Below the pieces are notes generated by a model that saw only the letters and a list, made by a program, of their open reading frames with translations, did not search any database and was not told the DNA's origin. A DNA stretch of 56,378 nucleotides from assembly GCA_004294005.1 (NCBI GenBank), contig RDZP01000004.1, positions 1 to 56,378 of the forward strand. Direction: 5' to 3'. This DNA comes from Cytophagia bacterium. Its GTDB lineage: Bacteria > Bacteroidota > Bacteroidia > Cytophagales > Microscillaceae. Position 1 is the stretch's first letter; every line of letters starts with the position of its first letter. Below, piece by piece: positions 50,998 through 54,776 of this stretch. A program made the translations under genes and the position numbers.

Positions 50998-51043
50998 AAC
51001 ACAATAATTTCAAAAAAAATATACAATAATTTCAAAAAAATAC

Positions 51044-51051
51044 TATCTTTG
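51044..51051 (+). promoter_or_regulatory. Bacteroidota -7 element
   Basis: TATCTTTG(CAC) 36 nt upstream of the leuS ATG. Confidence 0.5.
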
Positions 51052-51086
51052 CACGCTAAAAATCAATTAAAAAACACTTTAAAACA

Positions 51087-54000
51087 ATGTCAAAAGAATA
51101 TAATCCTAAAGAAATAGAGAGCAAGTGGCAACAATATTGGCAGGAAAATAACATCTATCAAGTTGAAAATCAATCAGATAAATCTAAATATTATGTATTA
51201 GATATGTTTCCCTATCCATCAGGTGCAGGTTTGCACGTAGGGCATCCTTTGGGATATATTGCTACTGATATTTTTTCTCGTTATAAAAAAATGCAAGGTT
51301 TTAATGTTTTGCATCCAATGGGTTTTGATTCTTTTGGGCTTCCTGCCGAACAATATGCCATCGAAACAGGACAACACCCTGCCATTACCACAGAAAATAA
51401 TATCAAAACTTTTAAAAACCAATTATCAAAAATAGGTTTTAATTACGATAAAAATACAGAAATTCAAACTTCGAGTGCTACTTATTATCGTTGGACACAG
51501 TGGATTTTTGGACAATTATTCAATGCTTATTTTGACAAAAAAACACAAAAGGCTGAAGATATTGATACATTGATTGACGCATTCGAAAAAAATGGTAATC
51601 AAAATATTGATGCGGCTTGTGATGAAAATACCCCTATTTTTTCTGCGTCTGATTGGAAAAATAAATCTGAAACCGAACAACAAGAAATCTTATTGTATTA
51701 TCGCTTGGCTTTTATTGCGGAAGCAACTGTCAATTGGTGTCCTGCCTTAGGAATGGTTTTGGCAAATGATGAGGTAAAAGATGGGCTTTCTGAACGTGGT
51801 GGACATCCTGTGGAACGCAAAAAAATGAAACAATGGATGATGAGAATTACCGCATATGCAGATAGATTGTTGGATAATTTAGAGAACTTGGATTGGTCAG
51901 ATGCAGTCAAAGAAATGCAAAGAAATTGGATTGGAAAATCTATAGGTTGTGAGATTGATTTTAACCTCACCCCCTTGCCCCCTGTCCACTTGGAGAGGGG
52001 GAATATTCAGACTTCAAATCAGTCTGTTTATTATCCAAATCTATTTACAACAGAGCCTGAAAAATGGAAATATTTGAAAGAATTAGCACGAAACCACCGC
52101 AAAAACTCAACAGAAGCAGAAAATATTTTGTGGCAAGAGTTAAGAAATCAAAAATTAGGTTTTAAAATTAGAAGGCAACACGCTATTGAAGATTTTATTG
52201 TCGATTTTGTTTCTTTGGAAAAAAAATTGGTCATCGAAGTAGATGGCGAATATCATAATGAAAAAGAACAAAAAGAATATGATAATTTTAGAACTTGGAC
52301 ATTACAAAATACAAGTTTTAATGAAATTCGTTTTACAAACGATGAAGTTTTAAATGATTTGAACAATGTATTAGAAAAAATTAAAAATAGATTAAAAAAT
52401 AATAACAGCGAAATAACAATCCCCTCTCCAAATGGAGAGGGGGCAGGGGGTAAGGTTCAAAAACTGACCGCCTTTACTACCCGCATCGACACTATTTTTG
52501 GCGTTTCTTATCTTGTGCTTGCTCCCGAACACGAAGTTATCTCGTCATTGACCACTACAGAACAAAAAAATGAAGTAGAAAAATATGTAACTTGGGCAAA
52601 AAATAGGTCAGAATTAGAAAGACAATCAGAAGTAAAAAATGTTTCAGGTGTATTTACAGGAAGTTATGCTATCAACCCTTTTAATCAAGAAAAGATACCT
52701 ATTTGGATAGCTGATTATGTGTTAGCAGGTTATGGAACAGGCGTTGTAATGGGCGTTCCGAGTTCAGATGAAAGAGATTTTAGATTTGCAAAACATTTTA
52801 ATTTACCGATTCGATTGGTGATTGAAGGAACAGAAAATATGGAAAATCCAACCGAAAAAAAATATGGAAAGATGATAAATTCCGAATTTTTGAATGGATT
52901 AGATACAAAAGAGGCAATTCAAAAAGCAATTCAATTTGTTGAAAATCAAGAAATTGGACAATCAAAAGTGAATTTTCGCTTGCGTGATGCGGCGTTTAGT
53001 CGTCAAAGATATTGGGGCGAACCTATGCCTATTTATTATAAAAATGGAATGCCTTATTTGGTCGATGAAAGCGATTTGCCTTTGCAATTACCTGAAATTA
53101 CAGAGTACAAACCTACTGCTGACGGCGAACCGCCTTTGGCAAGAGCAAAAAATTGGACATACAAAGGTTATCCACTCGAAACAACCACAATGCCGGGTTG
53201 GGCAGGTTCATCTTGGTATTTTTTGCGATATATGGATAGCCAAAATCAAAATACTTTTGCCTCAAAACAAGCCACAGATTATTGGAATCAAGTTGATTTA
53301 TATGTGGGAGGTACAGAACACGCGGTTGGTCATTTGTTATATTCACGTTTTTGGACAAATTTTTTGGCGGATAGAGGTTTTATTTCTTTCCAAGAGCCAT
53401 TCAAAAAAATGATAAATCAAGGAATGATACAAGGACAATCTGCTTTGATGTATCGTTTAAAAAATCAAAATACTTTTATTTCTTGGAATTTAAGAACAAA
53501 TTATAAAGAAGAAGAATTACAAGAGTTGCATGTTGATGTCAATATTGTTGAAAATAATATTTTGAACATTGAATTATTCAAAAAATGGCGAAGTGAAAAC
53601 GAAAATGCTACTTTTTTGTTAGAAGATGATAAATTTATGTGCGGTTCACAAGTCGAAAAAATGTCAAAACGCTGGTACAATGTAGTCAATCCTGATGATG
53701 TGATTGAAAAATACAGTGCGGATACTTTGCGTTTATACGAAATGTTTTTAGGTCCTTTGGAGCAATACAAACCTTGGAGTATGCAAGGCATTGATGGTTG
53801 TCATAAATTTTTGAAGCGTTTATGGCGTTTGTTTTATGATAATGAAGGGAATTTACAAATTTCAAACGAAGAGCCTACACCTGCGGAATTGAAAGCATTG
53901 CACAAATGTATCAAAGGCGTGAGAGAAGATTTAGACCGCTATTCATTCAATACGCCTGTAAGTAAATTTATGATTTTGGCAACTGAATTGATAGAATTAA

Positions 54001-54344
54001 AATGCTATAAAAAATCAATTTTAGAAAAGTTTTTGGGTGTGTTAGTGCCTTATACGCCACACATTTGCGAAGAACTTTGGCAAAACGCATTAGGTTATCA
54101 ATCAAGCATTTATCATACAGAATTTCCAACTTTTGAAGAAAAATATTTGACTGAAAGCGAGTACAGTTATCCAATTCAAATCAATGGAAAAATGAGAGGA
54201 AATGTTACATTCTCACTCGATTTATCAAAAGAAGAAATTGAAAAAATGGTCGTTGAAAACGAACTCGTACAAAAATATTTAGAAGGCAATGTTCCTAAAA
54301 AAGTAATTGTTGTTCCTAAGAAAATTATTAATGTAGTCGTCTAA
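51087..54344 (+). CDS. leuS: Leucyl-tRNA synthetase with in-frame 165-aa DUF559 insertion
   Basis: MFPYPSGAGLHVGHPLGYIATD (HIGH region), GFDSFGLPAEQYAI, TAFTTRIDTIFGVSYLVLAPEHE (CP1), EKMSKRWYNVVNPDD. Length 1085 aa versus ~920 without 51963-52457. Confidence 0.95.
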   Translation: MSKEYNPKEIESKWQQYWQENNIYQVENQSDKSKYYVLDMFPYPSGAGLHVGHPLGYIATDIFSRYKKMQGFNVLHPMGFDSFGLPAEQYAIETGQHPAITTENNIKTFKNQLSKIGFNYDKNTEIQTSSATYYRWTQWIFGQLFNAYFDKKTQKAEDIDTLIDAFEKNGNQNIDAACDENTPIFSASDWKNKSETEQQEILLYYRLAFIAEATVNWCPALGMVLANDEVKDGLSERGGHPVERKKMKQWMMRITAYADRLLDNLENLDWSDAVKEMQRNWIGKSIGCEIDFNLTPLPPVHLERGNIQTSNQSVYYPNLFTTEPEKWKYLKELARNHRKNSTEAENILWQELRNQKLGFKIRRQHAIEDFIVDFVSLEKKLVIEVDGEYHNEKEQKEYDNFRTWTLQNTSFNEIRFTNDEVLNDLNNVLEKIKNRLKNNNSEITIPSPNGEGAGGKVQKLTAFTTRIDTIFGVSYLVLAPEHEVISSLTTTEQKNEVEKYVTWAKNRSELERQSEVKNVSGVFTGSYAINPFNQEKIPIWIADYVLAGYGTGVVMGVPSSDERDFRFAKHFNLPIRLVIEGTENMENPTEKKYGKMINSEFLNGLDTKEAIQKAIQFVENQEIGQSKVNFRLRDAAFSRQRYWGEPMPIYYKNGMPYLVDESDLPLQLPEITEYKPTADGEPPLARAKNWTYKGYPLETTTMPGWAGSSWYFLRYMDSQNQNTFASKQATDYWNQVDLYVGGTEHAVGHLLYSRFWTNFLADRGFISFQEPFKKMINQGMIQGQSALMYRLKNQNTFISWNLRTNYKEEELQELHVDVNIVENNILNIELFKKWRSENENATFLLEDDKFMCGSQVEKMSKRWYNVVNPDDVIEKYSADTLRLYEMFLGPLEQYKPWSMQGIDGCHKFLKRLWRLFYDNEGNLQISNEEPTPAELKALHKCIKGVREDLDRYSFNTPVSKFMILATELIELKCYKKSILEKFLGVLVPYTPHICEELWQNALGYQSSIYHTEFPTFEEKYLTESEYSYPIQINGKMRGNVTFSLDLSKEEIEKMVVENELVQKYLEGNVPKKVIVVPKKIINVVV
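51963..52001 (+). repeat. Left terminal inverted repeat of the leuS insert
   Basis: Pairs with 52421-52457; contains near-palindrome CCCCCTgTCCACTTGGAgAGGGGG. Confidence 0.88.
52421..52457 (-). repeat. Right terminal inverted repeat of the leuS insert
   Basis: Contains perfect palindrome CCCCTCTCC-AAAT-GGAGAGGGG, then GCAGGGGGTAAGGTT. Confidence 0.88.
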
Positions 54345-54354
54345 AAAATAAAGC

Positions 54355-54474
54355 AATTTTGGGCGATTACGGGCTATCGTGCAAAGCACAGAGCCAAAAA
54401 AGAGAGAAAAAAACTTCGGAAACCTTGTTTTTTCTCTCTTTTTGTCTCTGCAAGTGTGCTTCTATCCCTATCGC
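54355..54474 (+). repeat. Dispersed multi-stem hairpin repeat, copy 2 (complete)
   Basis: Nested pairings: GCGAT (54363-54367)/ATCGC (54470-54474), GGG/CCC, AAGCAC/GTGCTT, and long stem CAGAGCCAAAAAAGAGAGAAAAAA / TTTTTTCTCTCTTTTTGTCTCTG; inverted match to 1-98. Confidence 0.85.
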
Positions 54475-54776
54475 GAGATGTAAACTTTTTTAGTACTTCT
54501 AAAACAACCTGTTTTACAATCGGATTTATTTAATTGCTTAGTATAGTACTTATTTTAACAACAAATAATACAATTATACTGAATTTTGATTGATGAAAAG
54601 AAAAAATCATTTTTATCCATGTGTCAAATTATGAAAAAAGCGGTATTTAAAATATCAACTAAACAAGTTCTATGTTAAAAATATATTTTTTACTATGATA
54701 AAGTTTATTTCTGCAATTTTATCCACCTAAAAACGTTTTACGTTAGTATTTCTTTTTTATAAATTCTAAATATTAT

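Follow-up and report, generated by a model that had tools for sequence, protein, structure and literature searches.

The leucyl-tRNA synthetase gene leuS in the window (the whole 56,378-nucleotide stretch analysed here) contains an in-frame nuclease element. A preliminary description had treated this insert as a lone oddity, but it belongs to a widespread family of elements of roughly 0.4–0.6 kb, with 125 in-frame copies detected across about 25 host genes of Bacteroidota, including those for LeuRS, IleRS, MetH, RecG, AddA/AddB, MutS, UvrA, IcmF and HsdR. Our preferred explanation, to which we give a probability of about 0.7, is that of a selfish element, intein-like but non-splicing, that persists as a domain tolerated by its host protein, with terminal inverted repeats (TIRs) that double as linkers. 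Direct support exists for the in-frame insertion, the repeats, the empty sites, the many hosts, the conserved active site, the purifying selection and a history decoupled from that of the host. The family is apparently undescribed so far: a search of the open-access full-text literature, to which most subscription papers do not belong, did not turn up any account of in-frame DUF559 elements.

In the window, leuS (51087–54344, plus strand; TIGR00396, E=4e-277) is a single uninterrupted ORF of 1085 aa, and without the insert the protein is a bacterial LeuRS by the same model. The ORF call and the alignment with empty relatives agree with the earlier claim of a continuous frame holding 165 extra codons: the element occupies 51963–52457 (plus strand), 495 bp or 165 codons all read in the leuS frame, and corresponds to LeuRS residues 293–457, its extent being further marked by the low divergence from a congener. 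The insertion point lies between "WIGKSxGxEIxF" and "LTxFTTRxDTxFG", a place where most members of the family and order have a short turn only; the junctions read F/NLTP and GGKV/QK, and directly downstream of the insert the CP1 editing domain resumes (52455–52937, plus strand; Pfam PF13603, residues 457–617). No second DUF559 copy was found in this genome, the assembly of which is about 80% complete, and the leuS copy is the only one found. The 83 bp to the right of the insert (52458–52540) have a GC content of 0.45 against a leuS average of 0.34, with 7% of host windows equally high; this GC-rich stretch could be an imported flank.

Like many others studied here, the window's genome is a fragmented draft, and with 217 contigs and 79.8% completeness, an assembly chimera or misjoin might be suspected. 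This explanation is largely refuted, and we find it hardly credible: a second genome, the congener G002, has the same insert in the same place with 10% divergent flanks, and similar in-frame insertions are present in many named genomes, isolates among them. We also considered that the domain could be ancestral, shared by all relatives and not bounded by TIRs. Most relatives lack it, and the reading is rejected by the empty sites, both in the LeuRS of relatives and in AddA. In the latter, a Hymenobacter-like genome (G043) carries a 166-aa in-frame element, and seven of its relatives have an intact empty site, their AddA proteins being ~95% identical over the N-terminal half. The proposal of an in-frame nuclease passenger with TIRs is thereby supported, with like elements in many other genes.

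The two TIRs are GC-rich and are supported by their arm scores, the stretches they encode being modelled as disordered linkers: the left one (51963–52001, plus strand) is translated as NLTPLPPVHLERG and the right one (52421–52457, plus strand) as PSPNGEGAGGKV. The inverted arms, 51971–52000 and 52421–52450, are 90% complementary over 30 nt, and the extended arms score 56 against a maximum of 21 in 50 shuffles. As had been noticed from the sequence, both arms translate without stops and each forms a hairpin of its own (51979–52001 and 52421–52443). The inverted repeats described at the insert ends are real, but need qualification in that the complementarity reaches only 1–2 bp past the core CCTCACCCC, one further complementary base preceding the core in 49/51 cases and two in 31/51, and in that the window's right TIR is mutated, with GGTAAGG in place of the GGTGAGG of G002. 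The idea that the elements insert into palindromes was dropped, as the excess complementarity beyond the core is confined to these 1–2 bp. Among the first 60 fetched loci, most in-frame copies are flanked by TIRs whose score exceeds that of every shuffle. Intergenic DUF559 copies have TIRs of the same type, and the earlier statement that similar repeats bound DUF559 ORFs between genes holds.

The hairpins are not restricted to complete elements. Solo hairpins of the form CCCCTCTCC-n-GGAGAGGGG were found in 15/57 relatives, the reversed control giving zero matches, and the genomes with solo hairpins contain paired ones as well; in the LeuRS genes of two further loci (L080 and L103), a nuclease-free in-frame hairpin or mini-element sits at the same CP1 entry turn as the window's element. 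Such cases favour an explanation in which the TIRs represent a REP/MITE-like palindrome family, moved by a trans-acting enzyme or by template switching during replication, with the nuclease as mere cargo; the absence of a target-site duplication (direct-repeat score 0.25 vs 0.21 shuffled) points the same way, as do the Rickettsia palindromic elements, which insert in frame with no nuclease reported (PMC10969869). A cargo nuclease should decay, however, whereas that of the elements is under purifying selection, with an active site that hardly varies, and the in-frame copies form coherent nuclease lineages; we consider this explanation unlikely. The likeness to the Rickettsia elements is functional only: these, too, place palindromic repeats in frame in unrelated genes and are tolerated in the protein (PMC10969869), but they are about 150 bp long, belong to Rickettsia and encode a short conserved peptide, whereas the window element has 495 bp and its family, found across Bacteroidota, encodes a conserved DUF559 domain under purifying selection. 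From classical transposons and MITEs, with which it shares terminal inverted repeats, the element differs by the missing target-site duplication and by having neither a DDE nor an HUH transposase, the Pfam matches being to nuclease families only. A shared target motif at the insertion sites was looked for and none was found.

The interior was correctly recognized as a DUF559/Vsr-like nuclease: in the full LeuRS, DUF559 (PF04480) is matched at residues 329–436 (52071–52394, plus strand) with E=6.5e-30 and 103.6 bits against a cut-off of 20.6, and the only other Pfam match of the insert is the overlapping MTES_1575 nuclease family. The domain has a Vsr/EDxHD-like PD-(D/E)XK fold. Profile comparisons match it to PDB 3hrl, a DUF559 protein, and to 3r3p, the catalytic domain of the homing endonuclease I-Bth0305I (E=4e-6), and an AlphaFold2 model of the domain (pLDDT 81) retrieves the same two structures at the top of a Foldseek search, 3r3p with a TM of about 0.8 on the target and Vsr ranking lower. 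The likeness to 3r3p in profile and fold places the domain among nucleases with a Vsr-like catalytic fold, as in the EDxHD group, while the conservation of the active site was measured within the family: the invariant D, E-x-D, H and D are kept in the window, and D51, E62, D64, H68 and D77 (family alignment numbering) are all kept in 123/125 in-frame copies. A study of Thermosynechococcus likewise placed a DUF559 gene in the EDxHD homing family (PMC9403480). With dN/dS of 0.01–0.13 in 14 pairs of elements, the purifying selection read from these comparisons excludes a dead passenger; it is compatible both with tolerance and with an added function. We infer that the nuclease cleaves DNA.

In an AlphaFold2 model of the whole 1085-aa LeuRS (pLDDT 77.6, based on 21 sequences), the insert occupies the turn between the CP1 strands 284–294 and 459–464. 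The TIR-coded residues 297–320 and 439–457 are modelled as disordered, with pLDDT below 50, and the nuclease is folded between them, and because of this we think that the TIRs double as flexible protein linkers. In the mechanism that we propose, the unit of the family would be a DUF559 (Vsr/EDxHD-type) domain without a stop codon, flanked by two hairpin-forming GC-rich TIRs, that inserts, with the frame preserved, where the host protein has a surface turn or linker, and that then forms part of the translated product. Each repeat would serve twice: as DNA it would bound the element, and as protein it would give a flexible Pro/Gly/Glu linker, allowing the nuclease to fold next to the host enzyme. 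Losing such a copy would be difficult, since any deletion that is not exact would disrupt an essential gene. The nuclease, synthesized together with the host enzyme, probably cleaves DNA, and repair would then copy the element to alleles that lack it or to new sites; it would amount to a homing endonuclease that is tolerated in the protein instead of being spliced out, and the product of leuS would be a 1085-aa LeuRS that is not processed and has normal activity. The odds seem to us about even that these elements constitute a separate class, one whose inverted repeats evolved as protein linkers, which spreads as a non-splicing domain of essential enzymes and whose nuclease is active only as a fusion.

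Inteins typically sit in frame in conserved, often essential enzymes, and the insert could in principle be spliced out before the enzyme works, either as an intein that escaped detection or as an RNA intron. We regard this as very improbable. The preliminary description saw no splicing motifs, and neither did our scans: Pfam and NCBIfam gave no intein family, Rfam gave no intron in 51000–54500, and the junctions lack the Cys/Ser start and the His-Asn end; furthermore, the frame is open through both TIRs, which would be needless for an RNA intron. The tolerated element nevertheless has much in common with inteins carrying homing endonucleases, being in frame in conserved, often essential proteins, with an internal nuclease, a patchy distribution and a history partly decoupled from the host; it differs in having no splicing domain or junction residues, in being bounded by DNA inverted repeats and, apparently, in staying in the protein. 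Unlike group I and II introns, it has no catalytic RNA structure according to the same Rfam scan. Homing endonucleases frequently reside within introns or inteins, and co-conversion of the flanks accompanies homing (PMC3943268). I-Bth0305I, similar in its catalytic domain by profile and fold (PDB 3r3p), is intron-borne and has a long DNA-binding region, whereas the DUF559 elements have no intron and consist of a single small domain with a TIR-coded linker on either side. Gene-splitting insertions linked to nucleases have been described (PMC5374615), and free-standing homing endonucleases of this kind, in phage nrdA (Friedrich 2007) and Campsomeris cox2 (PMC5374615), resemble the present case in the insertion of a nuclease into a conserved gene with a functional product; those, however, yield separate polypeptides, while leuS keeps one continuous frame. 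If our interpretation is true, a homing-type selfish gene can inhabit essential proteins as a well-behaved domain and without splicing, a niche that is otherwise mostly linked to inteins and introns. This would account for numerous odd "DUF559" fusions seen in enzymes of Bacteroidota, open a route for new domains into old proteins and provide a testable natural example of DNA ends doubling as protein linkers.

DUF559 matches occur in 149/292 genomes of the same order, assigned to Cytophagales through the identity of locus L074 to the named Cytophagales contig L241, and about 60 of the roughly 150 matches listed lie in ORFs far longer than a standalone DUF559 gene. Sixty loci, chosen for long frames, were fetched from members of the order: the hosts are LeuRS (14, window included), MetH (10), PurQ (10), IleRS (5), PglX-like methyltransferases (5), AddA (4), RecQ (4), AddB (2) and HsdR (2), with MutS, HsdM, HutG and others once each. 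The best 80 loci of a scan of GTDB genomes are from Bacteroidota only and add RecG, an IcmF-type mutase, MazG, UvrA, an ABC-F ATPase, HisD and DegT to the hosts; 61/81 of their domains are in frames over 300 aa, a proportion biased, as are those among the fetched loci, by the use of in-frame copies as queries and the choice of long frames. A fairer figure for the in-frame share comes from a sample of the phylum, in which 222/393 genomes are positive and about 50 of about 150 matches listed are in frames of at least 297 aa.

Several of the hosts are DNA-repair or restriction enzymes, and this would suit a domesticated accessory domain, captured once per host gene and kept for an added function, e.g., in DNA repair or regulation. 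The strong purifying selection and the nearly universal active site fit this as well, and the possibility is best seen in RecG: in 14 proteins from Flavobacteriaceae and relatives (L210, L211, L213–L216, L219, L223, L225, L226 and L232–L235), an in-frame DUF559 follows the DEAD motif region, and with TIRs eroded or absent, the domain is retained with an intact active site and under purifying selection. The RecG copy is thus possibly a domesticated one. As a general account, domestication is improbable in our view: LeuRS, IleRS, MetH, PurQ, IcmF, HisD and MazG are without a common function, close relatives have the element only patchily, element clades combine different host genes, and the insert shared by the window and G002 is far younger than the split of its hosts.

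The tolerated-element reading gains from the behaviour of the reading frame. Intergenic DUF559 copies, as in REP/MITE hairpin families, have the same kind of hairpin TIRs, but mostly keep a stop of their own and extend no host protein: among standalone copies with a clear right TIR, the stop lies between nuclease and TIR in 24/27, whereas the right-TIR phase that would read TGA is used by 1/46 in-frame copies. On a tree of 197 DUF559 domains, in which node support is often low, the state (in-frame vs standalone) changes 17 times, against 58.5 in shuffles, and for the 125 in-frame copies with their 25 host labels, the host gene changes at least 36 times; so the elements appear to jump between genes while remaining stop-free. 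The frame is not absolute in AddA, because one same-site copy (L147, genome G331) is out of register with the host frame on both sides.

Between the window and G002, the insert has 6/495 differences (1.2%; dS about 0.02), while leuS outside it differs by about 10% (dS about 0.49), the divergence stepping sharply at the element ends; by these distances, the insert appears far younger than the host split. A similar excess is seen in the RecG of two Tenacibaculum species (L215/L226), with a dS of 0.25 for the element and 1.29 for the flank, and the apparent youth of the element in both pairs is consistent with homing into empty alleles. Some PurQ and AddA pairs show the reverse by dS, an element older than its flank, and in most same-site pairs, the element diverges at host-like rates, as under vertical inheritance. 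To the right of the window's insert, 53 bp are identical to G002; co-conversion of this flank is only suggestive, because leuS has a 57-bp identical run elsewhere. A second congener (G001) has a different element, about 60% identical, a few residues away in LeuRS. The element at one intergenic site (L170) stands in place of about 135 bp and is no clean addition, this comparison and those of the PurQ ends being too diverged for an exact junction. Spread by phages or plasmids is not supported by the sequences at hand: 34 plasmid records have distant matches, none with at least 60% identity, and among viral contigs there is one close match (52%), the rest being distant relatives.

Some loci depart from the simple pattern of one internal copy per gene. 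Two elements are present in one host ORF in two of the 10 MetH (L069 and L109) and in one LeuRS (L261), and in L113 (3988–6168), an HsdR-like frame is followed by two more DUF559 fragments, truncated and in tandem, which look like a duplication of the element end. In the PurQ of several order members, the element is a C-terminal extension and not internal (L064, L065, L067, L072, L073, L075, L083, L110, L112 and L115), and these extensions are interspersed with standalone copies on the DUF559 tree.
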